A stretch of DNA of 42,361 nt. Origin: Candidatus Latescibacterota bacterium. GTDB taxonomy: Bacteria; Latescibacterota; Latescibacteria; Latescibacterales; Latescibacteraceae. The number at the start of each line of letters is the position of its first letter. The stretch's first letter is position 1. This document shows positions 3,702 to 37,547 of this stretch, one piece after another. The notes beneath the pieces are model-generated. The model did not search any database and was not told the DNA's origin. It worked only from the letters and a program-made list of their open reading frames with translations. The position numbers and the translations under genes are program-made. The DNA is taken from assembly GCA_016927495.1 (NCBI GenBank), contig JAFGMP010000258.1, positions 1 through 42,361 on the forward strand, written 5' to 3'.

Positions 3702-3830
3702 AAATAGATTACATATTCATTCTGATATGTAAAAAAAGTAAAAAAGAGTTAAGAAAACACTTGCTGTTTGTTAACAGGGAATTTTAATTCATCTATATGC
3801 GTTAAAATGATTCCATGGAGCATTTTTACG

Positions 3831-8866: not shown

Positions 8867-9916
8867 TCATGAATTCATATTCTTAAGTGTATGCAATACA
8901 ATAGGAACCGATATTTCCCAGTTCGGCGGCACTTCCTCGCTGATCATGAGACAAAACCGTGTAGGCCCTGCATCTTCCACAACTCGCTTGATTTTTGCAA
9001 CCAGTTCATTTTCCGGCAGACTGAACCAGCCCAGATTCGGGTGAAGCCAGAAAAATTTGTCAGGCCATGCGCTGCGGGCATCTGCCGCTGTTATGTCACC
9101 CTCAGGCGGGCCGGTCAGTGAATCGATGCCGTCTAACGGCATATAATGGATGTCATCGGCGATCACTCGTAATTTGCCGTCATAATGAACCTGAAGTTTT
9201 TTGTCTGAGCCGTCGAGTACCTCGAATATTCTCCGGTAAATCGGCATGTGATATTTGCGGAAAATTTTAGGCCCCATGGTTTCTATACTTACATTCTCCC
9301 AGAGTTTGATATGTTGCGCCTTTGTCTTGAGTATCTGTTTGAAGGCTTCTACGATCTGGTCGTTCAGGAGTTCGATCAATTCCAAAAGCTCGGGCTGTTC
9401 CTGCAAGATATCGATTGAAAAGCGTTCCAGACCGGCATAATCAATCTGAATTTCCTGAAGCGCTGTCCGGCGGCATTCGTACGGTGTCCAGCCGAGGTGG
9501 GCGACGGTGATTCCATTTTCTCCAAGTTCGGCTTCGGATTGATCATAATACGTATCTGTAGGAGTAATTGTGGTATCGGACAAAGCGTAAGCCATGATTT
9601 GGTAATCTTCCGGAGATTTGATCAGGTATTCCTGCAGCCAGCCGTCCAGATAGTACTCGTGAAGTTCTCCGATATCGGTAATCCATCTGATATCTTTTCG
9701 TGTCTGGCCATTAACGATAGCCTCGGTTTCCACAATGTCGAGATGAGGACGTTCGAATTCGATAACATCGACATGATTCATCTGTCCCAGTCCGAGATCG
9801 AACAGGTGCGACCAGTCTATATCGCGGTTTTTGACAAACCAGTCATACACAAGATAAACTGGTTGTTCTACAGGATCACCAGCCAGTGTGGATTCGAGAC
9901 GTTTTCGAATGGACAT
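8867..9916 (-). CDS. URO-D superfamily protein between two symporters
   Basis: 349 aa from the ATG at 9916 (AAGGGA 7 nt upstream). A longer frame exists but would overlap the symporter gene. The N-terminus MSIRKRLESTLAGDPVEQP is typical of the MtaA/CmuA-like branch of the URO-D superfamily. The later block VHYDGKLRVIADDI...GIDSLTGPPEGD aligns with the two other URO-D-like proteins here. The zinc motif HxC is replaced by H-Y-D, so a corrinoid methyltransferase role is doubtful. No corrinoid protein is encoded in the window. It is cytosolic and sits 32 nt downstream of one symporter gene and upstream of its near-duplicate. That suggests it acts on the imported solute, but no reaction can be assigned. 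Confidence 0.82.
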   Translation of the reverse strand: MSIRKRLESTLAGDPVEQPVYLVYDWFVKNRDIDWSHLFDLGLGQMNHVDVIEFERPHLDIVETEAIVNGQTRKDIRWITDIGELHEYYLDGWLQEYLIKSPEDYQIMAYALSDTTITPTDTYYDQSEAELGENGITVAHLGWTPYECRRTALQEIQIDYAGLERFSIDILQEQPELLELIELLNDQIVEAFKQILKTKAQHIKLWENVSIETMGPKIFRKYHMPIYRRIFEVLDGSDKKLQVHYDGKLRVIADDIHYMPLDGIDSLTGPPEGDITAADARSAWPDKFFWLHPNLGWFSLPENELVAKIKRVVEDAGPTRFCLMISEEVPPNWEISVPIVLHTLKNMNS

Positions 9917-9948
9917 TATATTTCCCTTAAAACTTGTTAATTTTAATT

Positions 9949-11679
9949 TTACATGAATAATCCTGAGAAAATAATCATCAGCAGAATTATGCCCGCTGCG
10001 AACAGACCCCACCAGAAGGTTACTCCGGAGTACCAGTGGGACCCCAGGTCTTCGAATATGTTGAGCTTTTGCCAGTTAAAGGTCAACAAATCGGTTACCT
10101 GTTCCGGCAAAGGTTTTGGTGTCATAAAGCTTACCGTGACGCAAATCGCAACGCAGAATCCCCAGTTAATGATCGACTGCATGGTGTATGGTTCAAGCCA
10201 TGCCGGATGTCCGGGCAATTGTACATACAGTTTCATGAGTATCCCCATGACGAAACCGAGTATTACCGCTGTTGACGCTCCGGGAGCGTTGATGCGTCTG
10301 AACAGTATTCCCAGGAGGAAAATTGCGGCAAACGGCGGGGCAAAGAAGGCATACAATGTCTGTATGTATACAAAAAGGCTGCCTTCCAGCTTGCTTATGA
10401 AACCAGCAAGAACTATTGATATAATAAGGATTACCACCGATGACCATATTCCCATTCTTACCAGATGTTTTTCCGGTGCGTTTTCATGAAATAATCGTTT
10501 GTAGATATCAAGTGTGAAAATAGTGGATGTCGAGTTCAACACCGAATTGACCGTCGACTGGATAGCTCCGAAAAGCGCTGCGAGAAACAAACCGCGAAGA
10601 CCGGCTGGTACGAGCATTTGCAGCATAGTTACATAGCCTTTGTCCGCTTCCGGTCGGATCTTCTCCCAGGGCAGTTCCATAACATCGGGAAACCGTGCGA
10701 ACAGGATCAAGCCCGGCATCACGACGATTACCGGTAACAGAATCTTTATATAACCTGCCAGTACTATTCCCATGCGGGCATGATACATATCCTTTGCACC
10801 GAGTACCCGCTGGATCATGAACTGGTTAATAACATTGTACCACAGGCTTACGGAAAATATGCCGATGAATATCCCCGGCCAGGGTGTTGTCTGGTGGGTA
10901 ACCGGCTGGAAAACTGACAGACGGTTGTAAGAATCGGCATGGACAATAGATTGTGCATTTTGCGCTACGACTTTTGCCCATATCCCGGCTTTTGCCTGAT
11001 TCCGTTCAATCATTATCCTGAAACCTTCCAGAAACGAGTGGGTATTTCCTGACAACATATACAGGCCGAGAACAGTCACCATCATGCCTCCGGCAATCAT
11101 GATGATTACGGTGAAAAAGTCAGTCCATGCTACTGATTTCAGACCGCCGTAAATTGCCCAGCTTCCCGCAACAACACCGAGTGTTATTATGGCAAACCAT
11201 AGATTCCACCCGAAAAGTTTATGCAGGGCAAGACCACCGCCATACAGTACGGCAGCGAGAAATGCAACAACATTACTGATGACGGTGACGATGGCGAAAA
11301 ACTGCCGTAAAAAAGAATTGAACCGCTTTTCCAGGAATTCAGGTGTCGTGAATACTTTCGCCGACATCAGAAACGGGATGAAAAACCAGATCAGGAGAGA
11401 AAAAGAGAATATATTGCCCCATTCACTCATGGATACACAGATACCATATACAAATGCAGCACCGATCATCCCGATAAAATGTTCGGTGCTGATATTTGAC
11501 GCTATGAATGACCCTCCGACAACATACCAGGGCAGGGAACGGCCTGCAAGAAAATAGTCTGCAGAACTTGTCTTTTCCTTTCTGCCTACCCAGAATCCTA
11601 TAAAACATAGAACAAAAAAGTAGAGACCGAATGCCGCATAATCAAGGAATCCAAGCCTGAAACTGTCAAGATCATTCAT
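9949..11679 (-). CDS. sodium:solute symporter (SSS family), paralogue
   Basis: 576 aa, ~13 membrane helices. The ATG at 11679 has AGGA 7 nt upstream. It is nearly superimposable on the 578-aa symporter at 6946-8682: SADYFLAGRSLPWYVVGGSF, IYGGLKSVAWTDFFTV and GAIQSTVNSVLNSTST all match with few changes, including the charged loop ERNQAKAGIW. It lies 13 nt downstream of the cytosolic ceramidase-like gene, so the two are surely cotranscribed. Tandem duplication of a symporter gene around a URO-D-like gene suggests either dosage or split substrate range. Substrate unknown. Confidence 0.92.
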   Translation of the reverse strand: MNDLDSFRLGFLDYAAFGLYFFVLCFIGFWVGRKEKTSSADYFLAGRSLPWYVVGGSFIASNISTEHFIGMIGAAFVYGICVSMSEWGNIFSFSLLIWFFIPFLMSAKVFTTPEFLEKRFNSFLRQFFAIVTVISNVVAFLAAVLYGGGLALHKLFGWNLWFAIITLGVVAGSWAIYGGLKSVAWTDFFTVIIMIAGGMMVTVLGLYMLSGNTHSFLEGFRIMIERNQAKAGIWAKVVAQNAQSIVHADSYNRLSVFQPVTHQTTPWPGIFIGIFSVSLWYNVINQFMIQRVLGAKDMYHARMGIVLAGYIKILLPVIVVMPGLILFARFPDVMELPWEKIRPEADKGYVTMLQMLVPAGLRGLFLAALFGAIQSTVNSVLNSTSTIFTLDIYKRLFHENAPEKHLVRMGIWSSVVILIISIVLAGFISKLEGSLFVYIQTLYAFFAPPFAAIFLLGILFRRINAPGASTAVILGFVMGILMKLYVQLPGHPAWLEPYTMQSIINWGFCVAICVTVSFMTPKPLPEQVTDLLTFNWQKLNIFEDLGSHWYSGVTFWWGLFAAGIILLMIIFSGLFM

Positions 11680-11692
11680 TATGATGTCCTGT

Positions 11693-13012
11693 TTATTTCA
11701 GTCGGTTGATCAAATCGAGAGAACAATTCACACAGGTTTGCTCGGCTTTTGGACTGTATTTACAGCCGTCGACCTCATAATCGCCTTCGATAAATTCTTT
11801 TGCCGTGGGCATGTAACCTTCATATCCGCCGCTGATGGCAAGTACAAAAGTATTTTTGAATGGAGATCTTTTTTTGATCTGAAGGCCTATTTCGGAGAAA
11901 ACTTCACCCGGAACACTGACTATTACCGTATTACCGATTTGTATCGACTGCTGCTCGATATTCAGCTTCGATGGTCGGTCTTTAGTTTCATAGAATATCT
12001 TTGCCGTTTCAAGTCGCTGGTTTGCTGAAAAATGTTCAAAACGGATATGATCCAGTTTCCTTGTTCCCTGCAATTCGCCTTTCTTTTCCATTATGGAAAG
12101 TTTTTTATTTGCAACTTCAGCGTCTTTTTCCGCCTGTTCAAGGGTCACGGGGAAGCTTTCACGCAGCGGGTAATCAAAAAAGTCGGTTACCATGGCAATT
12201 TTTTGGTTGTCCGATGTGGTTATTCCGGGCAGCGCATCGAGAACAGCTTTCACCATTTGGTTACCTTTGACCTCGATATACCAGTAGGTTCTGACCGGCA
12301 TATCTACACCTACTGCCGACAGTTCCGAGGAATAACCGACATTGATATCACCCTGGCAGGACTGGAAATAACCCACACAGACATCTTTGCCCACTTTTTC
12401 TTTTATACCCTTTATCGCATAGTACGGCCAGTCCTCGGAGTAGAGGCGGTTTTGCCAGTCGAGGGCTGAGGGATGGCAGCCATATACGAAGAATATACCC
12501 AGGAGTTTACCCTTAGTGTTTTCAGCTTTAATAATCCCAACCTGAGGATCGGGATGAATACCGCCGTACAGGAGCCTTCGACGGTTTCTGCCCAGTTCCA
12601 AAACTTCCGTAGTGCCGATACCCAGTTTTCCCGGTGCGCGGTTTTCATATGCCGTATTTGCGCTTGCCACTGCCTGATCCAGAACATATTTCCGATATTT
12701 TTCACCGGCTTTCTGAATCCATGGCCCGGCATGAGTGTGCGTACAGGTTATCAGTGTCCGTTTTTCCGGTATCCCGATCTTTTTACTGATGGTTTCCCGT
12801 ATTTTCAGGAGTAATTCACGATCGATATACACCAGTGAAAGCGTCATCAAAATAACGCCAAAACCTTTGGCATCCTCTATATAGAGGCTTCTGGCATGCA
12901 GATCATCATGAACTCCGGTAGCCACCTGGCTTCGCGCAAATCCCCTCAACAAAAGATTTTCCTTCGGTGTTATAACTGTTTCACCAACTCCAACTTTCAT
13001 AGCGCCACTCAT
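11693..13012 (-). CDS. neutral-ceramidase-like hydrolase, cytosolic, probable loss of nucleophile
   Basis: 439 aa. The ATG at 13012 is chosen for GGAGGA 4 nt upstream; a longer frame would overlap the aldolase gene. The fold is the N-terminal domain of neutral/alkaline ceramidases: VGVGETVITP at the start, the zinc-binding TCTHTHAGPW, YGCHPSAL, and near the end AISGGYEGYMPTAKEF, which carries the conserved Tyr. The usual nucleophile block GDVSPN is replaced by QGDINVG, so the serine is not seen. No signal peptide. Proteins of this family in glycan clusters are unlikely to cleave ceramide. It lies between an aldolase gene and a symporter gene and may hydrolyse or bind an imported conjugate. 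Confidence 0.8.
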   Translation of the reverse strand: MSGAMKVGVGETVITPKENLLLRGFARSQVATGVHDDLHARSLYIEDAKGFGVILMTLSLVYIDRELLLKIRETISKKIGIPEKRTLITCTHTHAGPWIQKAGEKYRKYVLDQAVASANTAYENRAPGKLGIGTTEVLELGRNRRRLLYGGIHPDPQVGIIKAENTKGKLLGIFFVYGCHPSALDWQNRLYSEDWPYYAIKGIKEKVGKDVCVGYFQSCQGDINVGYSSELSAVGVDMPVRTYWYIEVKGNQMVKAVLDALPGITTSDNQKIAMVTDFFDYPLRESFPVTLEQAEKDAEVANKKLSIMEKKGELQGTRKLDHIRFEHFSANQRLETAKIFYETKDRPSKLNIEQQSIQIGNTVIVSVPGEVFSEIGLQIKKRSPFKNTFVLAISGGYEGYMPTAKEFIEGDYEVDGCKYSPKAEQTCVNCSLDLINRLK

Positions 13013-13034
13013 ATTTTCCTCCGATAAATTTCTG

Positions 13035-13847
13035 TTAGTTATCCTGTAAATTGTATTTGTTAACCGCATATTGTGGTGATAACCCCCATTTTACTACATC
13101 GCACAGGGCCCGTTGAAATGCTGCCGGGTCGGGTACCTGAATTGCATTACGCCCAAATACCACTCCGCCGGCGCCGTCAGCGACCTCATCCGCCGCAAGC
13201 TGCAGAGCTTCAAGTTGTGTCGGCTTTTTCTCAGCTCCCAATCCGAGAACAGGTACCGGGCAGCTTTCCGTCACCGCCTTGAAATTATTTGTATAAAATG
13301 TTTTAATCAGATCAGCACCCAATTCAGAAATAATTCGCGCTGCAACAAATACCTTGTTGTGCAGTTTATCGGGTGAAAGTTTCTCCGGTTCCGCCGGGTA
13401 ATATTCGCCAACTACCGGCAGCCCGTATTCTTTTGCCTCGCTGCAAAGCTTGCGAAACACCTCAACATTGTGTGCATCATTGGCTTCGCTCCCCGTTTCC
13501 AGAGTCAGGGAAACGAGAACCGCATCTGCACCGAGTCTCAGAGCCTCTTTCGGACTGAACGCCGGTACAGTCACCGAATCTTTGTAATTCCACTGAAAAC
13601 AGTACACTGTGCTCCAGTTCAACCTGACAATCGCCATAGGCGCGCCCTTGTAATTGAATGCTTGGGCGCAGTGCGGAAGCATTCCGGGTGACAGCAGAAT
13701 GCCGTCCACAACCGAATCGATTTTCGACACTGTTTCGGATAAGTTTATCATACCCGGTATCGGGCCATCAAATTCACCATGATCGGCCGCGATGATCACT
13801 GTTCGTTCATTTTTGTTGAACAAACGGCTGAAACGTATAGTATTCAT
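13035..13847 (-). CDS. class I aldolase, DhnA/FbaB/LsrF type
   Basis: 270 aa. AGGAG lies 9 nt before the ATG at 13847. It belongs to the DeoC/FbaB TIM-barrel family. AADHGEFDGPIPG near the N-terminus and GADLIKTFYTNNF contain the family's Schiff-base lysine, here Lys182. This is followed by PVPVLGLGAEK and GGVVFGRNAIQ, which bind phosphate. Known members cleave fructose-1,6-bisphosphate or act on related ketose phosphates. Its place directly after a fucose-isomerase-like gene and a PfkB kinase gene suggests it cleaves the phosphorylated ketose into two triose-size units, probably DHAP plus an aldehyde. The exact substrate is open. Confidence 0.9.
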   Translation of the reverse strand: MNTIRFSRLFNKNERTVIIAADHGEFDGPIPGMINLSETVSKIDSVVDGILLSPGMLPHCAQAFNYKGAPMAIVRLNWSTVYCFQWNYKDSVTVPAFSPKEALRLGADAVLVSLTLETGSEANDAHNVEVFRKLCSEAKEYGLPVVGEYYPAEPEKLSPDKLHNKVFVAARIISELGADLIKTFYTNNFKAVTESCPVPVLGLGAEKKPTQLEALQLAADEVADGAGGVVFGRNAIQVPDPAAFQRALCDVVKWGLSPQYAVNKYNLQDN

Positions 13848-13901
13848 GTAAATTGTCTCCTGTTTATATAACTTCTTTTGAAAATATTATACGATAAACT
13901 G

Positions 13902-15017
13902 TCACCGGTTTAGTTCTTGAGTCATTGTTTCCCAGTCGCAAAGCCCGTCAGTTGCATTTATGCCATAAAGATTATCTCTTCCTGCACACATGGTATATTT
14001 CAGTGCAATTTCAGGATCAAAATTCTTCAGTAAAGCAGCGAGAAATCCTGCAACTGCAACATCTCCGGCCCCTGATGCATTTTTTACCCTTCCGGAATCA
14101 ACCCGAAAAGCCGGCGATCGTAATTCCTGGTGATTCCATCGGTCTTCCGATAAACTGAAGCCTGAAACATTATTAAGCGAAGAGACATCACCCGTAAAAA
14201 GGTATGCGCCATTTCTCCCGGTCTTTATTAATGTTATGCATGACCCGAGACTGATTATTTCTCTGCCGATATCGAGTATAATCTTCTCGGAAATCGAGTC
14301 TGTAATATATCCGTCAGAATTGTCTTTTGTTATTTGCGAGCAGAGTTCCGGTCTCATCATAAACACAATTTCTTCGATGCTCGGAGTAAAAATATCCACA
14401 TAGGGAAGTACACGTCTCAGAATATTTTTCCAGTCGATTTTTCCTGATTCGCTGTGAGGATCAGGCAACGTCATATCGAGTGAGGTTAAAACATCGAGTT
14501 TTTTTATCCTTGAAAACATCTTCGCTAACTCTTTACCGTTATTATCATAAAACACCTTCATGAGTGGCGGATACCCAAAATGGTAAATACGGCTTTCGGC
14601 AACAACATTATAATCGATATCACCGGATGAGAAATATCGATTACAGCCCGGTGATTCGAAAAAGATACGGTCTCGTCCGGGTGGTGACAGAACGATCCCG
14701 TATGCAGTGCCGGATTTATCGGTAGTTCTGATGCCTTCTGCCAATCCATTCTCACTGAGGATTTTTAATGCTATTTCACCAAGGATGTCATTCCCGACCA
14801 ATCCCTGGAGTCTGACCCGCAGATTAAATATTTTCAGAGCTAATCCCGTGTTTGCTACAACACCGCCGAGGGAGATTGACAAATCTTTAACTTCGGTCAA
14901 TGATCCCGGTTTAAAAAAATCAGTGCTGTTCGGATATCCGCTTATTTCATAAAACCCGGGAGCCAGATCAACACCAAGATACCCGGCGACAACAACATCG
15001 TATTTCTTTTCTTTCAC
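13902..15017 (-). CDS. PfkB-family carbohydrate kinase
   Basis: 371 aa, somewhat longer than the usual ~310. The start is GTG at 15017 with only a weak SD, 24 nt after the isomerase stop, so translation may depend on coupling. The ribokinase/PfkB signature is clear: GGVVANTGLALKIF near residue 50 (sugar side) and NASGAGDVAVAGFLAALL near the end, with Asp319 as the catalytic base of GAGD. It phosphorylates a sugar or sugar derivative with ATP. Set between an isomerase and an aldolase, it most likely makes the ketose phosphate that the aldolase splits. Cytosolic. Confidence 0.9.
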   Translation of the reverse strand: MKEKKYDVVVAGYLGVDLAPGFYEISGYPNSTDFFKPGSLTEVKDLSISLGGVVANTGLALKIFNLRVRLQGLVGNDILGEIALKILSENGLAEGIRTTDKSGTAYGIVLSPPGRDRIFFESPGCNRYFSSGDIDYNVVAESRIYHFGYPPLMKVFYDNNGKELAKMFSRIKKLDVLTSLDMTLPDPHSESGKIDWKNILRRVLPYVDIFTPSIEEIVFMMRPELCSQITKDNSDGYITDSISEKIILDIGREIISLGSCITLIKTGRNGAYLFTGDVSSLNNVSGFSLSEDRWNHQELRSPAFRVDSGRVKNASGAGDVAVAGFLAALLKNFDPEIALKYTMCAGRDNLYGINATDGLCDWETMTQELNR

Positions 15018-15041
15018 ATCTTAATCCAATCGCAAATGATG

Positions 15042-16397
15042 TCATATCATCTCAACACCCAAAATGCCGCATAAATCCTTAAATAAGCTGGTATTATTCC
15101 CGTAGGAAATGATATAATGCTGGCCAAGGACTTTCTGCATGAAATCCCCAACAGGTTTGTCGAGTATGATCTCAAGGCTTGGTAATTGCGGGACGGGTGG
15201 TTGCCAGCCTGCTTCTTCCCATGAACGGGGTGTTTTGCCTTCTCCGGTCACAACATGCATACAGTATTTATTACCGGTAGAGGACAAACGTGCCAGCGTA
15301 ACTTCTCCGGTTTTAATTTTTGAAACGTTCAACAGCCCTTCGCCGAACTCACCAAATGAGTTTGGCATGACTGTCACAGGCCCATCGACGATTTCCGAAG
15401 GAACATAGTCGGGAACACCCATAAGGACACCATTATCCAAAAACTCATAAAACTCGAGGTATGCACCGACCTGACCGGTCAAATATCTCGTGATAAGCTG
15501 CGTGACCGAACCCAATGTATCATTTTCGGGTATTGTGCAAATATCATCCTCATCGTGGAGCAGCATAAAAACGCCTGCCGGAGCGAATTTCATCAATTTT
15601 TTTACACCGTCAACATCGATCAACGATACCGCTTCATAGTTTCTTTCCCTGACTTTCTTACTGACAGCAAGATAGAGCCTGACTGCGTTCTCGATCGTAC
15701 CTTCCAATGGTTCCCTGACAAATTTCCACCTCTGAATCACTTTATCTTTCAAAAGTTTGATATCATCTTTGTTCAACATTTCCATGATTTGTTGAATTTC
15801 GAGCATTTCAAAGAACTCAACTTCGGGGCCGATGACTGACCGTAATGATACACCGTCATAGAGTGTTCCGTACAGTCGCATATCACGAAAACCCATCATG
15901 CCAATATGGGAACCACGGAGCATCGATCCGGCACGGGCGGCTTTTGCATAACTTACAATTTCTTCTATCGGCGCCGGGCCGCCATAAAAATTCATAACAT
16001 ATTTGAATGTATAGCCAAGGTCTTCCATGGGTTTTCTCAAAGCCGTTGTACCAGCCTGGTCAGCCGTGGTGATAAACCTCCCGCCTTCGCTCCACCCGGT
16101 GAGCCCCCAAAGCAGCATCGGTTTATGGCGAAATGGATCGATTACATCAATAACTGCATGAGAAGGAATCCATCCGGCAATACAGATTATAAGCAGATCG
16201 AACTCATTTCCCGCCAGTTCTTTTTTTGCCCTTCGTACATCAGCGCCGGATGGATCATCACTAACCGGTTCGACCCAGATAAGTTCGATTCCTTCGGCCT
16301 CGATTTGTTTTCGTGCCTGATTACATTTTTTTTCTATTATCTCTTTCGGAGTGTTTATTTCTCCGAATCCGATAAATGCGGCTTTGATTTTCCTCAT
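15042..16397 (-). CDS. L-fucose/L-arabinose isomerase family protein
   Basis: 451 aa. The ATG at 16397 has AGGGGA close upstream. The N-terminal two thirds is the Rossmann-like substrate-entry part (FIGFGEINTPKE, then LIICIAGWIPSHAVID). The C-terminal part ends with GQHYIISYGN, which matches the metal-binding histidine block of fucose isomerase-like proteins. It is shorter than E. coli FucI (591 aa), as are many members of this COG2407-type group. Such enzymes interconvert aldoses and ketoses with Mn2+. First of three genes (isomerase, kinase, aldolase) separated by 24 and 54 nt, which reads as a complete route from aldose to trioses. Confidence 0.85.
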   Translation of the reverse strand: MRKIKAAFIGFGEINTPKEIIEKKCNQARKQIEAEGIELIWVEPVSDDPSGADVRRAKKELAGNEFDLLIICIAGWIPSHAVIDVIDPFRHKPMLLWGLTGWSEGGRFITTADQAGTTALRKPMEDLGYTFKYVMNFYGGPAPIEEIVSYAKAARAGSMLRGSHIGMMGFRDMRLYGTLYDGVSLRSVIGPEVEFFEMLEIQQIMEMLNKDDIKLLKDKVIQRWKFVREPLEGTIENAVRLYLAVSKKVRERNYEAVSLIDVDGVKKLMKFAPAGVFMLLHDEDDICTIPENDTLGSVTQLITRYLTGQVGAYLEFYEFLDNGVLMGVPDYVPSEIVDGPVTVMPNSFGEFGEGLLNVSKIKTGEVTLARLSSTGNKYCMHVVTGEGKTPRSWEEAGWQPPVPQLPSLEIILDKPVGDFMQKVLGQHYIISYGNNTSLFKDLCGILGVEMI

Positions 16398-16727: not shown

Positions 16728-18311
16728 TTACCAGAATTTAGCATATATAGCGCACATGACCGCAATCCATATTGCACACCAGATCCATAGATTTTTATAC
16801 CATGGATATCCGCCGGATATTTCTTCTTCCGGCAACTTCATCATGGAGGGCTTCCAAACCAGTCCTTCCACGTTTTCTTTTTTTGGCTGTTCGGTTTTCA
16901 GGCTCACAACAATTGCAAATACAAACGAAAACAGAAATACAATGCCCGCAAGATTGAACTCGTTCATCTGCCAGCCGAGTCTTATTTCCGCTAATCGCAA
17001 AACATACGGCAGGACGAACAAGGGAAAGCACAAGGCCAGCGTCAGAAATGCCGCTTTCTCAGTCATTCGTTTCCAGAGTATGGCAAGAATGAAAACAGAA
17101 GCGACCGGTCCGGCAAAGAAAAACCAGCATTTCTGGAAGAACTCGAATATTGTGGGAAATTTTCCGACAACTGGAGCCCATAAACCACCGAGAATAAGGA
17201 CAACCGTGCTGCAGATACGGCCGACTCTGATCAATGTATCATCCGAAACATCGGTTCTGATCTTGTGATATAATTCCAGTGTGAACAAAGTTGATGCCGA
17301 ATGAACAAGCGCTTCAATAGTGCTCATAACAGCACCACACAATCCGGCGAGTATCAATCCACGAAAACCGGTCGATACTAACGCTTTGACCACAAACGGA
17401 TAAGCCATGTCGGGGCTTTCGAGATTCGGATTCAGTGCATATGCAATAAGTCCCGGGAATTCGATTGCCATTGTTGAAATTATTATGAGGAAACCGGTTA
17501 GAATAATACCCATCTTACCATCCCAGCGCGACTTTGCACCGAGACAACTTTGTATCATTGGCTGGCTGGTGCACCAGTACCAGATATTGACAGGGATGGT
17601 CAGAACGAGGATCGCTGTCCAGGGAATTTCCGGATGGCTTAAAGGCTGTATAAGGTGCGCTCGTTCACCGGTACCTACAATTGCGCTGAACCCACCGTCG
17701 ATAGTCATCATCCCCAACACCGACACAAGCACGCCGCCACCGAGAAGGAGAACACCCTGGAGGAGCTGTGTCCATGCCACGGAAATCAAACCGCCGAACA
17801 CCGTATAACTCCCGGCGACTATGACCATCAGCCAGATACCGGCAAGTTTATTCAACCCGAAAATCTGTTCCAGCAGAAATCCACCGGTGTAAACAACACC
17901 TGCCAGCATAATGAAAACAAGCGCGAAAATACTGATCACCGCATAAATGTTTCTCGGACCGCTCCCGAAACGTAATTCAAGGTATTGAGGAATGGTTATA
18001 ATACGTTTGTTCAGATAGACGGGAATAAAAATCCAAAGCATAATCAGCATGGAGACAAAATTTGCCAGCTCCCAGTTGAACACAGGAGCGCCCCACTTGT
18101 AGGTAAATCCGCATGATCCGATAAACTGTTCGGTGCTGACCGAGGAGGCGAGCATGCTGAATCCTATGAGATAAAACGGAAGTTTGCCTGATGTGACAAA
18201 GTAATCCCGGGCTGATTCTTTTTTTTTCCTGCCCACAAAAAAACCAATGAATGTTACGATTACAAAATAGGAAACAAATATTATCATATCCGGTAATCCA
18301 ATATCCCACAT
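16728..18311 (-). CDS. sodium:solute symporter (SSS family), divergent subtype
   Basis: 527 aa with about 13 hydrophobic segments. GAGGAG lies 8 nt before the ATG at 18311. It has the SSS hallmarks SARDYFVTSGKLPFYLIGFSM, VFGGLISVAWTQLL and GAVMSTIEALVHSASTLFTLELY. The last places serines where Na+ binds in the family, but the sequence is clearly different from the two near-identical symporters at 6946 and 9949, and shorter. It lies 25 nt downstream of an exported ceramidase-like gene. It probably imports the product of the exported enzymes upstream. Confidence 0.92.
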   Translation of the reverse strand: MWDIGLPDMIIFVSYFVIVTFIGFFVGRKKKESARDYFVTSGKLPFYLIGFSMLASSVSTEQFIGSCGFTYKWGAPVFNWELANFVSMLIMLWIFIPVYLNKRIITIPQYLELRFGSGPRNIYAVISIFALVFIMLAGVVYTGGFLLEQIFGLNKLAGIWLMVIVAGSYTVFGGLISVAWTQLLQGVLLLGGGVLVSVLGMMTIDGGFSAIVGTGERAHLIQPLSHPEIPWTAILVLTIPVNIWYWCTSQPMIQSCLGAKSRWDGKMGIILTGFLIIISTMAIEFPGLIAYALNPNLESPDMAYPFVVKALVSTGFRGLILAGLCGAVMSTIEALVHSASTLFTLELYHKIRTDVSDDTLIRVGRICSTVVLILGGLWAPVVGKFPTIFEFFQKCWFFFAGPVASVFILAILWKRMTEKAAFLTLALCFPLFVLPYVLRLAEIRLGWQMNEFNLAGIVFLFSFVFAIVVSLKTEQPKKENVEGLVWKPSMMKLPEEEISGGYPWYKNLWIWCAIWIAVMCAIYAKFW

Positions 18312-18336: not shown

Positions 18337-19875
18337 TTACCACAATGCATTGATAGCTTCAACAGTTTCATTGACCAGAACCTGTCCTCCTATAGGACCG
18401 ATTCTGGTGACCATAGCGCTGTATCCGCCACCGGGAATGGCTCTTGCTGTCGGCAGATAACCGCACGAATCACCACTCAATTGAATCACGAATGTCTGTG
18501 CAGCTTTACTTCGGGCAGTTATCCTGAAACCGTAATCCAGATATAATTCAAAAGGATTTGTGGCAAAAGCCACATCGCCAAGCCTGATAACATGAAGTTC
18601 CATCGAATAAAAGGGATCATTATTCTGATTTTTGTATTTTTCAACCAGCGCCTGTTTCTTTTTAACTATGCCGAAATCGGTGATTTTGTTGTCCCATGGA
18701 CCAAATTCTTTTGTTTTTTCATTGTCCTCGATAATTTTTAAAAAACGATTCCATGCAGTATCAGGGGAATTCGGATCATCCGGTTCACGGGACATTATTT
18801 CCTCAACGATCGCGAGCGCTTCTTGATATTCTTTTTCGCTGACTCTCCGCGTGGGCAGTTTGATCTCTTTTACTGTATGACCGAAAACCACGTTTGTTTG
18901 AATGTTTTCTTTCGCGGATGGATACACTACGTCAACGGCACGGGCGATTCTTTTCCCGATTTCGATTATGCCCGGGACATCCCACATATTGGGTTCCCCT
19001 TTATAATTACGAACCAAATCACGGGGTGACTGGTCTCCGGCCGCACCGCATTGAGTCAATACAAACAAATCCTCGGAATATTTTGCCTTCAATTGTTTTC
19101 TGACCTCGCTCCAGTAATCGGACGAAACGTAATATTTTGCTTCCGTTACCTGTGACGGGCATGATACGTTGAGAACAATTCCGGTGAGCTTTTTATCCGT
19201 GTTCCAACAGAACAGCATCTCCACTCCATGATCGCTCGGGCCTTCAAGGTCGATAAAATCCTCGGTATCGGAAGCGCCGTACATCTGTGCCCTGCCGTCG
19301 GCATACCGAACCCTGCGGCAATGTCCCACGACTGCTTGGCCAAGCTCCCAACTGATACCGCCCGGTTTACGTGCCTTCCATGCCTCAATAACGGCTTCGG
19401 CAACACGGTCGATGAATATGACCTCAAACTCAGCCCCTGTCGTTCCCTTTCCTTCCTCGACGTCATCACTCGTTCTTGGGCCTACATAGGGCGCGCTGTG
19501 GGTATGAGTTGCATTCAAAAAGAGTTTGCTGACATCGAAATCGGGAATTTCAACCGTTACCTTTTCCCTGATTTTATCCTGAACTTCTCTGTTAAAGCTT
19601 ATGACATCGCACGATACCATTATAGCCTGTTCTTTCACACTTCCTTCAGCCCGTGTTTCAAGAGCAAGAGCAGTAACTTTCAACGGACTCTGTACATATG
19701 TCGAAATACGTTTGTAATACTGGCCATACAGCGATACCGGTTTATCCGGAGTTATGTCTTTGCATGACCAGCCGATATATATCCGGCCCTTTTCCGATGC
19801 ATCGGAAATATCTGCGAAACTCATCATAACAACCATAACGGCAATTACAACAAAAAGCACAGTGATTTTGTCCAT
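18337..19875 (-). CDS. exported neutral-ceramidase-like hydrolase
   Basis: 512 aa. An SD GGAG precedes the ATG at 19875. Residues 1-27 are a signal peptide (hydrophobic core, then DASEKG). The mature part matches the N-terminal catalytic domain of neutral/alkaline non-lysosomal ceramidases: IGWSCKDITPDKPVSLYGQY, the zinc-binding LNATHTHSAPY, QCGAAGDQSP, which corresponds to the nucleophile block GDVSPN with its serine kept, and CGYLPTARAIPGGGY with the conserved tyrosine. It thus keeps the key residues its cytosolic relative at 11693 lacks. True substrate uncertain: the family is abundant in glycan-degrading bacteria, where amide-linked or glycosidic conjugates are plausible. Cotranscribed with the symporter that follows. 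Confidence 0.85.
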   Translation of the reverse strand: MDKITVLFVVIAVMVVMMSFADISDASEKGRIYIGWSCKDITPDKPVSLYGQYYKRISTYVQSPLKVTALALETRAEGSVKEQAIMVSCDVISFNREVQDKIREKVTVEIPDFDVSKLFLNATHTHSAPYVGPRTSDDVEEGKGTTGAEFEVIFIDRVAEAVIEAWKARKPGGISWELGQAVVGHCRRVRYADGRAQMYGASDTEDFIDLEGPSDHGVEMLFCWNTDKKLTGIVLNVSCPSQVTEAKYYVSSDYWSEVRKQLKAKYSEDLFVLTQCGAAGDQSPRDLVRNYKGEPNMWDVPGIIEIGKRIARAVDVVYPSAKENIQTNVVFGHTVKEIKLPTRRVSEKEYQEALAIVEEIMSREPDDPNSPDTAWNRFLKIIEDNEKTKEFGPWDNKITDFGIVKKKQALVEKYKNQNNDPFYSMELHVIRLGDVAFATNPFELYLDYGFRITARSKAAQTFVIQLSGDSCGYLPTARAIPGGGYSAMVTRIGPIGGQVLVNETVEAINALW

Positions 19876-20014: not shown

Positions 20015-21163
20015 TCATACTTTGACCACTATCTGTTTATTTTGTGATTCCAGCGCTGCAGTGAACAGTCTGTGACTTAGCTCCGTCTCTTCGGGAGTCA
20101 CACATCCGGCAAATCTTTTCAACGGTTTTCCGTGTTTGAATTCGTAGAGAAATGCCGCCCACATCTGGAGAAGCGCATCGGAGAAACTCAGGGTGAAAAT
20201 GCCGCCACTTATGGTTTTAAACGCTGTTTCCTGCCCCGTATCGATGTGCTGCCAGGTCTGTGTGCCTCCGGTATACTCGAGTTTCTGCAGTAATTTCGGA
20301 TTTTTCGTTGAAAACCGTGCCGAGGCTTTTGTGCCTAATATCGACAGGTTCCATGAATTAGTTTCACCGGGTGCGATTCTGTGGGTTTTTAACGTCATGG
20401 GGAATATATTATCCCCGTCAGCGTTCTTTGTTTCACAGAAAAGCGTTGCATTATCCCATGTTTCGCACGGCACGATGTTTCCTTTGCCATCCGGCCGCTC
20501 AGTCACTATGTTCGAGAGAATAGCACGAACATTTAGAGGCCTCCATCCTGCACGGAACGGTACATGGCAAATATGCATGCCGAGATCGCCCATGCTGCCA
20601 TACTCGCCGTTGATGTCAAGTATCCGTTTCCAGTTTATAGGTTTTGCGGGATCAAGGTCGCTTGCATGAAAGAAACCGGCCTCGACCTCGATAATTTTCC
20701 CGAAAACATCGGATTCGATCATATTGCAAATCTGCTGAACCGCCGGGTAAAAAATAAAATGCGATGTGCAGCGAACAAAAGCTTCGGGATGGCTGCGAAT
20801 GGCGGAAAGTATATTTTTATTTGCATCGATGTTTATGCCAAACGGTTTCTCTCCGACGAGATGTTTGCCAGCCTCAATTGCCGCACAATACATTTCTTGA
20901 TGAAGGTTATGAGGCACGGCAATATAGACCACATCGACATCCGGATTTTCTATCAGTTCACGGTAATTTTGAGTAACCTGCCGTATCGAGGGAATGTTAT
21001 CCGTATACCATCCGGTCTTTTTCGGATCGGGTGTTCTGCTGCATATAGCTACGATCTCCGGCCTTATATTCATATCGGGAAGATGACACCAGCGTGCAGC
21101 GGCGCTGGCAAATTCACGGCCCATCATTCCGATTCCTATTATTCCAAAGCGGACGGTTTCCAC
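20015..21163 (-). CDS. cytosolic Gfo/Idh/MocA oxidoreductase
   Basis: 382 aa. The start is GTG (21163) with the strong SD AAGGAG just upstream, 28 nt after the previous gene. Residues 6-15 (GIIGIGMMGR) form the Rossmann dinucleotide site. EAGKHLVGEKPFG holds the catalytic Lys of the EKP motif. DLGMHICH supplies the acid and histidines expected in the C-terminal domain. No signal peptide. Members oxidise or epimerise sugars and cyclitols with NAD(P). Unlike the two exported Gfo-like proteins in the window it keeps every canonical residue, so it is the most likely working dehydrogenase of the cluster. Confidence 0.9.
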   Translation of the reverse strand: METVRFGIIGIGMMGREFASAAARWCHLPDMNIRPEIVAICSRTPDPKKTGWYTDNIPSIRQVTQNYRELIENPDVDVVYIAVPHNLHQEMYCAAIEAGKHLVGEKPFGINIDANKNILSAIRSHPEAFVRCTSHFIFYPAVQQICNMIESDVFGKIIEVEAGFFHASDLDPAKPINWKRILDINGEYGSMGDLGMHICHVPFRAGWRPLNVRAILSNIVTERPDGKGNIVPCETWDNATLFCETKNADGDNIFPMTLKTHRIAPGETNSWNLSILGTKASARFSTKNPKLLQKLEYTGGTQTWQHIDTGQETAFKTISGGIFTLSFSDALLQMWAAFLYEFKHGKPLKRFAGCVTPEETELSHRLFTAALESQNKQIVVKV

Positions 21164-21191: not shown

Positions 21192-22361
21192 CTACTTAAA
21201 AATACTCTCGTCTATCCAGTCAGGGTGTGGGCACGGCGCTTCCCAGTTTTCGGGGACATCCTCGATCCTTACGAATCCGCCGTTATGTTCGAGATGCGAT
21301 TTAAATCCCGCGAGAAAAATGTTGGTCTTTTTCAGGATGTAGTCGTAGTCCCATATCATCTTGCGGGTTTCGAACAGACGCTGCATTTGAAGGACTGTCG
21401 GGAAAAACAGCGTGAACATACGCATGGCACGGTCGTTATAGGTCCAGTGGTTATCGATATCCCACCAGCCCCCATCGTAATAGATGCGCATGTTTGCATT
21501 CGATGCATATCCGGTCAACTGCTGCTGGGCAACCATGAACTTCTTGTCCTGCTTGCCGACTCCGGGAATATCGATCCCGTTGTATTGCAGAGTCAACAAG
21601 CCGTACTCCATCGTTTTACGCGATGTCAGAGTGACATTGTTCCACCAGCTATCCGCCTGGAAACTCACCTGGTTTACATCGAGGCCGAGAATTGCCAGCA
21701 GATAATACAAACCGTGGACACCGTGTGCCGGGTATTCGTAACCCGCCGAATTGTCAGAATTCGCGCCAAGGATGTTCTTGCCTTCCTTTAGAAGCTGTTC
21801 GACTTTACCGCGGGCAGTAACCGATTCCTTTATGAATTCACGCTCGTCGGTACACTGGATAGGGGTATTGTATTTTTTCGCCGTCTCGATCATTTGCCGT
21901 GCTGATTTCATGCTGTAGGCAAACGGTCGGTTGATGTGGCAGGGTATACCCGCTTCTAGATAGGGACGCGTCAATTGAGGCCACCATTTTACCTCGTAAA
22001 AACCGCCGAAGATCATACCGTCGACTTTCCCGACCATATCGTCGTAGTTTTTCACTGCTTCGCATCCGAATTCCTTTGCGTATGCGGCAGCAACCTCCGG
22101 GTCACGGTCCCAGCAGTGGGTGATTTTCATCCTGGTGGTTCGACCATACCATTCTTTCCCCGGTACGGGATTAATCATCGGCGACCAGATATCGTAGTTC
22201 AGATGACTACCGTCACCGACAGCGACAACACCGATATTAAGAAGTTCGCAGGTCGATGATGTACGTTTTGCGGCGGTTGCCGGGCCGACACTCAGCGCGG
22301 AGGCTGTACCTGCCGCAGCTGCTTTTCCAATAAAACTCCGTCGTGTATGATCATTATTCAT
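21192..22361 (-). CDS. Tat-exported Gfo/Idh/MocA-like protein with altered EKP motif
   Basis: 389 aa. AAGGA lies about 10 nt before the ATG at 22361. Residues 6-12 (TRRSFIG) followed by an Ala-rich stretch and ATA|A form a twin-arginine signal. NIGVVAVGDGSHLN stands for the Rossmann glycine loop. The EKP motif reads N-R-P (INRPF), so the catalytic lysine is replaced by arginine. YPAHGVHG supplies histidines. Tat export means it folds, probably with bound NAD(P), before leaving the cytoplasm. First gene of the long minus-strand run, overlapping nothing; 28 nt separate it from the next oxidoreductase. Catalysis uncertain. Confidence 0.85.
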   Translation of the reverse strand: MNNDHTRRSFIGKAAAAGTASALSVGPATAAKRTSSTCELLNIGVVAVGDGSHLNYDIWSPMINPVPGKEWYGRTTRMKITHCWDRDPEVAAAYAKEFGCEAVKNYDDMVGKVDGMIFGGFYEVKWWPQLTRPYLEAGIPCHINRPFAYSMKSARQMIETAKKYNTPIQCTDEREFIKESVTARGKVEQLLKEGKNILGANSDNSAGYEYPAHGVHGLYYLLAILGLDVNQVSFQADSWWNNVTLTSRKTMEYGLLTLQYNGIDIPGVGKQDKKFMVAQQQLTGYASNANMRIYYDGGWWDIDNHWTYNDRAMRMFTLFFPTVLQMQRLFETRKMIWDYDYILKKTNIFLAGFKSHLEHNGGFVRIEDVPENWEAPCPHPDWIDESIFK

Positions 22362-22679: not shown

Positions 22680-24044
22680 CTAATAACCGAAATGCTGTTC
22701 AGCTTCACCGATAGCTTCGTCGATAATATCCATGCATTTACCTGCAACATCGGTATCCATGACAATCGGTGGGCTCATACGTAATATATGCCCTGCCGGA
22801 ATCCATGCCAGCCCTTTTCTAAACGCGCTTTTATAAACATACTCTCCGGCTTTGTTAAATGGTTCTTTTGTAGTACGGTCTTTTACCAGTTCAACTCCCA
22901 TCAGGCAGCCTTTACACCTTACATCGCCGATTATGGGATGATTTTCCTTCATCGAATCGAGCCGCTTCACAAAGTAGTTTTCAAGCCTTTTGGCATTTTC
23001 CAGCAGGCCCTCCTCCTGAATCGCTTCAATGGAAGCGAGCGCCGCCGCACAGGCCATGGGATTTCCGCCGTAACTGGTGGAAGCGCTGATTGTCTCGATG
23101 GATTCGGCATACTCTTCTCTTACAATCATCGCCGTCACCGGAAAGCCGTTGCCAAAACCTTTGCCGAGGGTTACCACATCGGGAATAGTATCCCAGTGTT
23201 CCATGGCGAGAAAAGTTCCTGTCCTCCCCATGGATGTAAGTACCTCATCGGAAAACAGAAGTATATTGCGTTCATCGCACCATCGCCTCAGTTTCGGAAA
23301 AAAATCGTCCGGTGGAAAAATCGAACCTGCCCATCCCTGAATCGGTTCGAGTACAATGGCGGCAATCTGCCCGGTTGTACCTTCGAGTATGAATTCATCA
23401 TAGAATTTGAGGTATGCTTCTGTGTCGACTGACCCGTCCGTTCTTGTGAACAAAGGCCGGTATGTATTGGGGCGGGGGAGCATGTAAAATCCCGGTGCAC
23501 GGGTCGGGCCGTTGACAGGCTTCATTCGGGCGAGACTGATTGAATGCCCCGATTTGCCGTGGAAATCGGCAAAACATGACAGAAACTCATGTTTCCCGGT
23601 TGCCGCTCTGCATACACGCAGTCCGGCTTCAACCGCTGTTGTTCCGCTGTCATACAACTGCATGCCTGAAAGGTCTCCCGGGAGAATTTCTTTCAGCTTT
23701 TCCAGCAGTTTCACTTTTATGGGTGTGGTAAAATCATGGCAGTTCATCAATTGTCCGGCAGCTTTCTGAACAGCTTCGGTTACTTTCGGATGGCAGTGAC
23801 CAAGCGTTGTGACATATATGCCGGAAGAAAAGTCGAGATAGGTGTTGCCGTCCGCATCGGTGAGGGTGCAGCCGTAACCCTTTTCAAAAACTACAGGGAA
23901 AAGCTTCACCTGGCCTGAATACCCCTTCATGATGGCTGATGCTCTTCCATGAAGTTCACGGGATTTCGGGCCGGGAACCTCGGAAGTTCTAATGTCGGGA
24001 ATTTTATTGAGATCGACTTTTGCCCATTCAATCGAGTAACTCAT
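22680..24044 (-). CDS. class III aminotransferase (PLP)
   Basis: 454 aa. The ATG at 24044 overlaps the deoR stop as ATGA and has GGAGG 7 nt upstream, so a longer frame is rejected. It is a fold-type I, class III transaminase: DADGNTYLDFSSGIYVTTLGH, the PLP phosphate block YDSGTTAVEAGLR, VLEPIQGWAG, FSDEVLTSMGRTG, and Lys295 in TLGKGFGNG, which forms the Schiff base. Members act on omega-amino groups (GABA, ornithine, amino sugars) or as 2,2-dialkylglycine decarboxylases. The substrate cannot be fixed here. Overlap with a sugar-type repressor gene suggests an amino-sugar or aminocyclitol role, which is only inference. Confidence 0.9.
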   Translation of the reverse strand: MSYSIEWAKVDLNKIPDIRTSEVPGPKSRELHGRASAIMKGYSGQVKLFPVVFEKGYGCTLTDADGNTYLDFSSGIYVTTLGHCHPKVTEAVQKAAGQLMNCHDFTTPIKVKLLEKLKEILPGDLSGMQLYDSGTTAVEAGLRVCRAATGKHEFLSCFADFHGKSGHSISLARMKPVNGPTRAPGFYMLPRPNTYRPLFTRTDGSVDTEAYLKFYDEFILEGTTGQIAAIVLEPIQGWAGSIFPPDDFFPKLRRWCDERNILLFSDEVLTSMGRTGTFLAMEHWDTIPDVVTLGKGFGNGFPVTAMIVREEYAESIETISASTSYGGNPMACAAALASIEAIQEEGLLENAKRLENYFVKRLDSMKENHPIIGDVRCKGCLMGVELVKDRTTKEPFNKAGEYVYKSAFRKGLAWIPAGHILRMSPPIVMDTDVAGKCMDIIDEAIGEAEQHFGY

Positions 24045-24808
24045 CGTGCTGCCTCCACTATATGTGTCATTGTGTTGAATTCTTTCATTAATTCTTTTTT
24101 CATGCCGGGTGTTGTAATCCATATATCGAAATCGTTAAGATTGCCATAGGAAATGTAACCTTTTTTCCCGGTTTTGGTATGGTCTGCAAGCAGAATTTTT
24201 TGTGTGCCGCTTCGAAGCATAACCTGTGTAAGCCGTGCCTCGTCAGATGAGCCAACCATACATCTTCCGCTGTTGTCAATTGCATCGACACCGAGAAACA
24301 CCGTGTCAAAATGGAGTAGCTCAAGCATGTGTTCTGTCAGACTCCCCGACAACGAATAAAGGTCCGGATTGTATTCTCCGCCCAATATATGCAGTTTCAC
24401 ATGGTCATACCTGCTGAGTTCGGCTATCATGGCGAGCGAGTTTGTATAAACAGTGAGCGGTGATGTTTCGCCAATATATGTAGCAAGATGATATGTGGTC
24501 GAACCGTCGTTGATGAGAACTACATCACCGGATTTCACCATGTGTCTTGCTGTTTTACCGATAGCCTGTTTCAAATCGAAATTTAGAGCGACTTTTTTAT
24601 AATAGCCGGTTTCCATTGAGGCACGGCCTGAGGCGAGACATCCTCCATGTGTTCTGATAATAGCACCCGCCATAAAAAGTTGATGTAGATCCCTTCGTAT
24701 GGTAAGAGAGGAAACACCAAGAATTTCCGCAAGCTCGTCGACATGGAATTCCTTCTGCATGGCACGGAGGATGGCGAGTATTTCTTTCTGGCGTTCTTGT
24801 GGTTTCAT
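24041..24808 (-). CDS. DeoR-family transcriptional regulator
   Basis: 255 aa from the ATG at 24808 (an in-frame ATG at 24853 would add 15 residues; neither has a good SD). Residues 5-55 are the DeoR winged helix-turn-helix (ERQKEILAIL...VDELAEILGVSSLTIRRDLHQL). The rest is the DeoR sensor domain: ALNFDLKQAIGKTA, DVVLINDGSTTYHLA and LHILGGEYN, which binds a phosphorylated sugar in known members. The repressor is released when such an intermediate accumulates. It overlaps the aminotransferase start by 4 nt and is divergent from the plus-strand sugar operon. It therefore likely controls both. Confidence 0.9.
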   Translation of the reverse strand: MKPQERQKEILAILRAMQKEFHVDELAEILGVSSLTIRRDLHQLFMAGAIIRTHGGCLASGRASMETGYYKKVALNFDLKQAIGKTARHMVKSGDVVLINDGSTTYHLATYIGETSPLTVYTNSLAMIAELSRYDHVKLHILGGEYNPDLYSLSGSLTEHMLELLHFDTVFLGVDAIDNSGRCMVGSSDEARLTQVMLRSGTQKILLADHTKTGKKGYISYGNLNDFDIWITTPGMKKELMKEFNTMTHIVEAAR

Positions 24809-24896
24809 AGTATAATAGTATAATGTCGGTTCAGTATTGCATTCTATAATCATACCCTAAAATTACAAAAATGAAAATTTTAATCATGAATAATGT

Positions 24897-25176: not shown

Positions 25177-25250
25177 AAATTATGGGATGACAAAATATAT
25201 GTATGAAAAATATATGGATAACAAAGTTTATGGATGACGAAATTTTATGG
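25171..25250. repeat. five degenerate tandem 15-17 bp units
   Basis: Units begin at 25171, 25187, 25203, 25218 and 25234. The consensus is about ATGACAAAATTTATGG. The array begins inside the last bases of palindrome copy C and ends 26 nt before the chosen start codon of the amidohydrolase gene, so it lies in the leader. The ATG inside the last unit (25247) is in frame with that gene but has no SD. Confidence 0.7.
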
Positions 25251-25276
25251 TAGGAAAACACCAGGGAGAATTATCC

Positions 25277-26299: not shown

Positions 26300-26377
26300 T
26301 ATATTGATATTTATTGTTATGGCAAGTCTTGTTTGATATCATAAAAAAATACATTCTCCTTTTGAAAGGAGTTCATT

Positions 26378-27673
26378 ATGAGTCAATACCAGCAGATTGA
26401 ATCAAATACTACGGCAGGTATATCCGGTACACCTTCCGATATAAAACGAAGTTCGAACCAAGGTTTCTCACGGCGTAATTTTCTCAGGTATAACAGTGCG
26501 GCCTTTGCCGGTATCGCGCTGAGTTCAAAAACGGCATACGCTGTCGATACTGCTCCGAAAAAAATTAGAATAGGTATTGTCGGCGGTGGTTTCGGATGTT
26601 CGTTTCAGTGGCATGAGCATCCTGATTGTATAGTTGAAGCTGTAAGCGACCTGATCCCTGATCGCCGCGACCGTTTGCAGAAAATTTACGATTGTACTAA
26701 ATCGTATAATTCCCTTGAAGAACTTGTGTTGGATAAAAATATAGATGCGGTGGGTGTTTTTACCGATGCTCCGCTTCATGTACAGCATGCAGTTCGGGCA
26801 ATGAAGCACGGCAAGCATGTCATATCCGCAGTGCCCGCAAGCGCCGGTTCGGTCGAAGATGCCGAACTGCTGCTGGATACGGTTAAATCGACCGGACTTA
26901 CCTATATGATGGCTGAGACAAGCCATTATCAGCAGCACACTATATCCGCACGTAATTTCTATAATAACGGACTTTTCGGAGATATATATTATTGCGAATC
27001 CGAATATCAGCATCCGGGATTGAAAACGTTATTCGAGTTTGACGGGAAACGTACATGGCGTCATGGTTACCCACCGATGTATTATCCGACTCACTGTACC
27101 GCTCATCTTGTAAGCGTAACCGGAGAACGGCTGATCGAGGTTGTCTGCCATGGCTGGGGCGATAATGATCCGATAGTGAAAGATAATGTGTACGGCAATC
27201 CGTACTGGAACGAATCGGCGATGTTCAAGACGAACAAAGGGCATGCTTTCCGGGTAAATATCTGGTGGGAGGGCGCCCATCGCGGTTGTGAACGCGCACA
27301 GTGGATTGGCAATAAAATGAGTTTTTATGCGCAGCATCCCAACGGTGTAGGTCCGGTAATCATACGCTCCGAAGACCGTATGGAAAAGGATGATGCCGGT
27401 TTTGAGCGGATGGCTCCGAGATTTGAGGAATATGAGCAGACGGAGTGGTGGAAAACCGATATGTTGCCGGAACCGCTGCGTCATAACAGCGGACATGAAG
27501 GCTCTCATACATTTCTGACCCATGAATTCATCGATGCGCTGACCCATGACCGTAAACCCTCTGTCAACATTTATGAGGCGCTGGCGTATACCGTACCCGG
27601 AATCATTGCGCATCAGTCGGCATTGAGCGGCGGTGAATTGAATAAAATTCCACAATTTGATGAAAAAATTTAA
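26378..27673 (+). CDS. Tat-exported Gfo/Idh/MocA-like protein lacking EKP
   Basis: 431 aa. AAAGGAGTT precedes the ATG at 26378. A long N-region carries the twin arginines (SRRNFLRYN, Arg32-Arg33) and a probable cleavage at AYA|VDT. IGIVGGGFGCSFQ is the dinucleotide loop. Where the family has EKP this protein has A-V-P (SAVPASAG), so the catalytic lysine is missing. YYPTHCTAHLV shares the YPxHxxH pattern with the other exported relative at 21192. Probably folded with cofactor before export. It may bind rather than oxidise a sugar. Second gene of the operon, 78 nt after the amidohydrolase gene. Confidence 0.87.
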   Translation: MSQYQQIESNTTAGISGTPSDIKRSSNQGFSRRNFLRYNSAAFAGIALSSKTAYAVDTAPKKIRIGIVGGGFGCSFQWHEHPDCIVEAVSDLIPDRRDRLQKIYDCTKSYNSLEELVLDKNIDAVGVFTDAPLHVQHAVRAMKHGKHVISAVPASAGSVEDAELLLDTVKSTGLTYMMAETSHYQQHTISARNFYNNGLFGDIYYCESEYQHPGLKTLFEFDGKRTWRHGYPPMYYPTHCTAHLVSVTGERLIEVVCHGWGDNDPIVKDNVYGNPYWNESAMFKTNKGHAFRVNIWWEGAHRGCERAQWIGNKMSFYAQHPNGVGPVIIRSEDRMEKDDAGFERMAPRFEEYEQTEWWKTDMLPEPLRHNSGHEGSHTFLTHEFIDALTHDRKPSVNIYEALAYTVPGIIAHQSALSGGELNKIPQFDEKI

Positions 27674-27721
27674 CGGTCACGATATGAATAAAACCGATAC
27701 TATTTCTACGGAGACATCGTA

Positions 27722-28417: not shown

Positions 28418-28454
28418 ATATACGGAACAGTGGTAAAATAGGAGCTTTTAATCA

Positions 28455-29852: not shown

Positions 29853-29855
29853 TTC

Positions 29856-37324: not shown

Positions 37325-37547
37325 GGGCATACCTTTGCATAGGGATGATTTGTTTTTTTTCAAAATATATGATGAATCTTCCGGTAAAACAAATTTTAAT
37401 AAAAGTGCGGAAAGATAATAATTTTACCGTTGGATTATTGAAATATAAAGTTTATAATGAAATTCTGTGATTACGTCCAAAAATTTTGATCTAAGTATTC
37501 CACGATGCTTGCTTCAGGGTAAGGAAAAAATATTAAAAGTCAGGCAG

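Follow-up and report, generated by a model that had tools for sequence, protein, structure and literature searches.

Pathways in which an isomerase, a kinase and an aldolase follow one another are known from fucose-type catabolism (FucI-FucK-FucA) and from the Embden-Meyerhof type of sulfoglycolysis (sulfo-EMP). The E. coli sulfo-EMP enzymes are YihS, of family PF07221 (PMC9594981), YihV and YihT, the sulfofructose kinase and SFP aldolase belonging to families PF00294 and PF01791, respectively (PMC12421959); the sulfo-EMP2 variant combines, in sequence, a FucI-type isomerase (SftI/SqvD), the PfkA-type kinase SqiK (PF00365) and the class II aldolase SqiA (PF01116) (PMC9594981). A gene run of similar logic was analyzed here in a 42,361-nucleotide (nt) stretch of DNA from a Candidatus Latescibacterota bacterium (contig JAFGMP010000258.1; the whole stretch is hereafter the window), in which genes for an isomerase (ISO), a kinase (KIN) and an aldolase (ALDO) are adjacent. 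A sequence-only reading of this DNA had proposed that the three form a self-contained cassette for one sugar. Based on gene neighborhoods in other genomes, the window probably holds instead two linked sugar-catabolic modules joined in one genome, A with ISO and KIN, and B, in which the conserved partners of ALDO are an L-arabinose-isomerase-like protein (ARAA) and an FGGY-family kinase (FGGY). The isomerase-kinase-aldolase order in the window would then be mostly a local juxtaposition of the two modules.

The three genes are contiguous on the minus strand, and the gaps of 24 nt (ISO/KIN) and 54 nt (KIN/ALDO) claimed for them were recovered from the open reading frame (ORF) coordinates and by reading the intervening sequence (Table 1). 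They encode proteins of 451 amino acids (aa; ISO, ATG start), 371 aa (KIN, GTG start) and 270 aa (ALDO, ATG start). The conservation of ISO loci across phyla rules out chance ORFs, and with their key catalytic residues intact ISO, KIN and ALDO look like genuine, active genes. The three enzyme classes assigned by the sequence-only reading (fucose-isomerase-like protein, PfkB kinase and Schiff-base aldolase) also held, on the basis of profile matches, residues and a structural model of ISO.

Sequence links of ISO to described isomerases were weak, both to FucI and to SftI (NF048012; 29.6 bits vs. a curated cut-off of 700). An AlphaFold model built from 42 aligned sequences (pLDDT 92.8, pTM 0.92) matched L-arabinose, D-arabinose and L-fucose isomerases in Foldseek (7chl, 4f2d, 3a9r and 1fui; TM 0.80-0.85), with AraA as the best match (E 2e-27, TM 0.85). 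Residues E291 and E315 aligned with E337 and D361, metal ligands of FucI. Among the 42 sequences, E291 and H427 were invariant and position 315 was E or D; judging from its motif, H427 would be the third ligand. Loss of these ligands, named beforehand as grounds for abandoning the cassette proposal, was not seen, and the label of a short fucose-isomerase-like protein agreed with the model and its structural matches. Fold and metal-ligand positions, both common to ISO and the AraA/FucI isomerases, predict an aldose-ketose isomerase; ISO differs from those enzymes, however, in being only 13-16% identical to them, in finding no match in the Pfam search, and in forming a separate conserved subfamily across many phyla.

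KIN matched the PfkB family (PF00294, 62.6 bits) and carries the GAGD catalytic motif (G316-A317-G318-D319), invariant across 17 aligned sequences, and is on these grounds a predicted PfkB kinase. The roughly 60 extra residues ascribed to it correspond to its 371 aa against the 302 positions of the Pfam model. In a curated-profile search KIN was weakly IolC-like and Gfo weakly IolG-like; an inositol-type route was considered and set aside, as no iolB/D/E-type partners were recognized and nothing usable emerged from the literature on the inositol path of Thermotoga.

ALDO was placed in the DeoC/LacD clan (PF01791, 71.1 bits), and its nearest sequences in the Protein Data Bank were MJ0400, LsrF and an archaeal class I fructose-bisphosphate (FBP) aldolase, MJ0400 aligning over the full length (116 bits). 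The proposed K182 did align with the Schiff-base lysine and was invariant in 21 orthologs, which also kept D22, H23 and the phosphate-site GRN (232-234); in-frame stops reported for three orthologs fell outside the aligned protein upon direct re-alignment. With a Schiff-base lysine in a DeoC/LacD barrel, ALDO is predicted to be a class I aldolase of the DhnA/LsrF type. It resembles the DhnA/LsrF/MJ0400 aldolases in the full-length alignment, K182, D22 and the GRN site, but scores below every curated subfamily cut-off, and position 150, aligned with a Tyr of MJ0400, is Tyr in the window protein and Phe in 16 of the 21 orthologs, so that the acid/base partner of K182 is not assured. Searches of plasmids with ISO and with the class III aminotransferase AMT3 gave no match, and with ALDO only remote LsrF/DHN relatives.

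The same reaction logic would apply to a sulfoglycolysis variant, whether sulfo-EMP or sulfo-EMP2, with sulfoquinovose or some other sulfosugar as substrate; the weak match of ISO to SftI is full-length, and KIN and ALDO fall in the Pfam families of the sulfofructose kinase and the SFP aldolase of E. coli. Such a variant is nonetheless very improbable here. ISO lies far under the SftI cut-off and is outscored by ARAA against that profile, KIN and ALDO belong to other families than SqiK and SqiA, and SqvB (PF16161) was not found in the window's own genome, so that the features defining SqvD, SqiK, SqiA and SqvB were all missing. Membership of the E. coli sulfo-EMP type failed on the isomerase, as ISO has no PF07221 match and an AraA/FucI fold instead, different from that of YihS, and sequence comparison gave no near-neighbor relation of KIN or ALDO to YihV or YihT. 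Neither the scanned window genes nor the recurring ISO neighbors yielded a sulfoquinovosidase, a sulfolactaldehyde dehydrogenase/reductase or a sulfonate exporter, in family scans that included no dedicated sulfoglycolysis search; to that extent they agree with the earlier statement that no gene specific to sulfoglycolysis or fucose catabolism lies nearby. The FucI-FucK-FucA path has the isomerase-kinase-aldolase logic in common with the window, and an FGGY kinase occurs both in module B and at many loci of module A, but ALDO is of the class I DhnA type where FucA is class II, and the kinase beside ISO is a PfkB protein.

In order to define the conserved neighbors of ISO, contigs of GTDB were scanned with the ISO alignment, which resulted in 80 loci (52-72% identity to ISO) from Planctomycetes, Lentisphaerae, Kiritimatiellae, Spirochaetes, Clostridia, Chloroflexi, Armatimonadetes, WS1, Omnitrophota, Terriglobia and others. 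Within 7 kb of ISO, FGGY and the ceramidase-fold hydrolase CER2 were each encoded at 42 loci, followed by DEOR (17), KIN (16), GFO1 (16) and AMT3 (13), with ALDO at a single locus; an ALDO homolog occurred anywhere in the fetched sequence at three. Either KIN or FGGY lay within this distance at 57 loci, and both at just one, a near-mutual exclusivity expected if one kinase replaces the other on the product of ISO. These counts define module A, with KIN as the partner of ISO, replaceable by an FGGY kinase; ISO and a kinase form a conserved step pair. In the only congeneric genome (G001, 95% complete) the order DEOR-AMT3-GFO1-CER2-SSS1-ISO-KIN was the same as in the window, with ISO split over two contigs; no aldolase followed KIN, and no relative of ALDO or ARAA was detected genome-wide. 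The claim of a self-contained cassette did not survive these results: the enzyme classes and the ISO-kinase pair stood, but ALDO as a conserved third member did not. In G001, the ceramidase-like genes are separated from the module A symporter by a gene for a GH51-type arabinofuranosidase (L027, 9737-11725). No description of the gene combination of module A was found in a literature search that covered few subscription journals; it is apparently an undescribed, widespread sugar-degradation gene set whose enzyme classes are already known.

Orthologs of ALDO (E <= 1e-40) were present in 23 of 50 ISO-bearing genomes and, within the phylum of the window, in one of 64, the window's own (G000). Beside ALDO, FGGY and/or ARAA were found in 16 of the 23 genomes (in G072 at a distance of about 8 kb within one run), frequently accompanied by the amidohydrolase AMH and DEOR and sometimes by AMT3, while KIN was near in one and ISO in three. 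ARAA itself occurred in 22/23 ALDO-positive vs. 14/26 ALDO-negative genomes (Fisher p = 0.001). The neighbors ARAA, FGGY and AMH thus define module B, of which the window has the full set (25247-31307 plus ALDO). At two further loci (L075 and L102) ALDO, ARAA, AMH, GFO3 and ISO occurred together, both modules being interleaved in one run as in the window. The expected co-occurrence of the triple in other genomes was therefore seen at the level of genomes, but not of operons.

One linear route for a single sugar, in which ISO would convert an aldose to a ketose, KIN would form the ketose 1-phosphate and ALDO would release two trioses, ARAA and FGGY being separate, is rather unlikely in view of these neighborhoods, in which ALDO is accompanied by FGGY/ARAA far more often than by KIN or ISO, and of the congeneric genome, which retains ISO and KIN without ALDO. 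Such a route would account for the adjacency and reaction order of the three genes in the window, and for the joint presence of ALDO and ISO in 23/50 genomes vs. 0/62 genomes of the window's phylum beyond G000 and G001 (Fisher p ~2e-10, with a control that is not phylum-matched). Three Clostridial ISO operons (L124, L131 and L144) follow the same logic, but with an aldolase of the FSA type; they also encode a TIM-like isomerase, YjbQ (UPF0047), an FGGY kinase, a SIS isomerase and CER2, and in two cases a PgtP-like transporter; in addition, remote ISO homologs (30%) are paired with DhnA-type aldolases in G007, G008, G011 and G012. The loci of such remote homologs in the phylum of the window (L028, L029 and L036) represent a separate, possibly parallel isomerase-aldolase cluster; GH38 mannosidase-family genes are present in L028 and L029, and a DeoR gene in L029 and L036.

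Several observations weigh against the division into two modules. Both ARAA and FGGY were absent near 7 of the 23 ALDO orthologs, and in Zipacnadia, WS1 and Armatimonadetes ALDO lacked all of its recurring neighbors. No terminator-like site was listed in the gap between KIN and ALDO, so that the three genes are probably co-transcribed, and the high co-occurrence of ALDO and ISO at the genome level implies that ALDO could serve both branches. Finally, many loci end at contig edges, which makes absences weaker evidence.

Under the two-module arrangement, gene content, the predicted ISO and CER2 folds, catalytic-residue conservation and neighborhoods suggest the following reactions, order and substrates. 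A sugar-like compound would be taken up through module A (DEOR, AMT3, GFO1, CER2, SSS1, ISO and KIN) and processed by the ceramidase-fold hydrolase and the oxidoreductase/aminotransferase; ISO would then turn an aldose into a ketose by metal-assisted enediol transfer, and KIN would phosphorylate it. Module B (ARAA, FGGY, ALDO, AMH and GFO3) would apply the same isomerize-phosphorylate logic to a related sugar, with Schiff-base aldol cleavage by ALDO as the final step. Since ALDO here shares a gene run with ISO and KIN, it may act on the products of both modules, that of KIN included.

A more specific proposal, which we regard as doubtful, is that module A serves, across phyla, an undescribed catabolic pathway whose substrate is an N-acylated amino sugar or amino polyol. 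Deacylation would be carried out by the ceramidase-fold hydrolase and conversion of the amine to an aldehyde by the class III aminotransferase; ISO and the kinase would then pass the resulting aldose on to central metabolism, and in some lineages ALDO or a different aldolase would cleave it. Pairs of Gfo/Idh proteins and aminotransferases are known in amino-sugar and aminocyclitol metabolism, and AMT3 is conserved beside ISO and also found near ALDO (Table 1), which would suit the making or salvage of an aminated sugar derivative by aminotransferase, Gfo/Idh protein and kinase rather than the catabolism of a free sugar. This is improbable: catabolism is indicated by the DeoR regulators, the sodium symporters, the glycosidases (GH51 in G001, GH28-like in L102) and the aldolases, and at many ISO loci no AMT3 was found nearby.

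Table 1. Genes of modules A and B and adjoining genes in the window.
Gene	Assignment	Position	Strand	Basis or remark
DEOR	DeoR-family regulator, heads the minus-strand genes	24041..24853	-	DeoR genes recur in both modules
AMT3	Class III aminotransferase	22680..24122	-	59-71% identity at ISO loci; present at several ALDO loci too
GFO2	Weak Gfo/Idh homolog, flanked by AMT3 and GFO1	21192..22361	-	Profile match
GFO1	Gfo/Idh/MocA oxidoreductase	20015..21163	-	50-62% identical in ISO loci
CER2	Predicted neutral-ceramidase-fold hydrolase	18337..19875	-	Commonest non-kinase neighbor of ISO; model and profile
SSS1	Sodium/solute symporter adjoining ISO	16728..18311	-	83% conserved and syntenic in congeneric genome G001
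ISO	Predicted AraA/FucI-fold isomerase	15042..16397	-	Model, metal ligands, orthologs in 80 loci
KIN	Predicted PfkB-family kinase, partner of ISO	13902..15017	-	PF00294, GAGD, neighborhoods
ALDO	Predicted class I DhnA/LsrF-type aldolase, partner of ARAA/FGGY in other genomes	13035..13847	-	PF01791, K182
CER1	Second neutral-ceramidase-family protein	11693..13069	-	True start probably ~13012, past the ALDO stop
SSS2	Sodium/solute symporter downstream of CER1	9949..11679	-	Profile match
UROD	Uroporphyrinogen-decarboxylase/methyltransferase family, last of the run	8867..10012	-	Profile match
AMH	Amidohydrolase, PF04909	25247..26299	+	Recurs beside ALDO orthologs; module B
GFO3	Gfo/Idh/MocA oxidoreductase	26378..27673	+	Module B
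ARAA	L-arabinose-isomerase-like	28455..29852	+	Isomerase recurring with ALDO; module B
FGGY	FGGY-family sugar kinase, nearest XylB	29856..31307	+	Kinase recurring with ALDO; module B

The model of CER2 matched the neutral ceramidases 2zws and 4wgk (Foldseek E 1e-20 to 1e-22, probability 1.00), by which a neutral ceramidase fold is predicted. CER2 resembles neutral ceramidase (PF04734) in this fold and in the retained HxH motif, but is 13-15% identical, falls below the Pfam cut-off and adjoins sugar genes. Judged by eye, a signal peptide was not evident in most CER2 relatives. Inspection by eye, without superposition, also showed Cys239 (CPSQ) in CER2 where CER1 has His (GCHPS), possibly at a zinc-ligand position of neutral ceramidase. 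A GH188-like role was set aside for the Gfo genes, whose nearest solved structures were oxidoreductases and sugar dehydrogenases, in comparisons that included no GH188-directed test.

Elsewhere in the window, a LamG protein is encoded on the plus strand between GFO3 and ARAA, and two sulfatases near the modules (35834-37363 and 37876-39654) suggest the use of sulfated glycans. In a 1041-aa protein (3768-6893), a GGDEF diguanylate cyclase is fused to Reg_prop and Y_Y_Y sensor domains, and another protein (39690-41159) combines an N-terminal zinc ribbon with a protein kinase domain and a cyclic-nucleotide-binding domain.

The module A set, comprising the isomerase, an interchangeable kinase, the ceramidase-fold hydrolase, the aminotransferase, the Gfo/Idh protein and the DeoR regulator, is distributed over many phyla, in bacteria from gut, rumen, lake and sediment. 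Identification of its sugar would allow a catabolic capability widespread in uncultured bacteria to be annotated, and would make a role of ceramidase-fold hydrolases in sugar metabolism testable.

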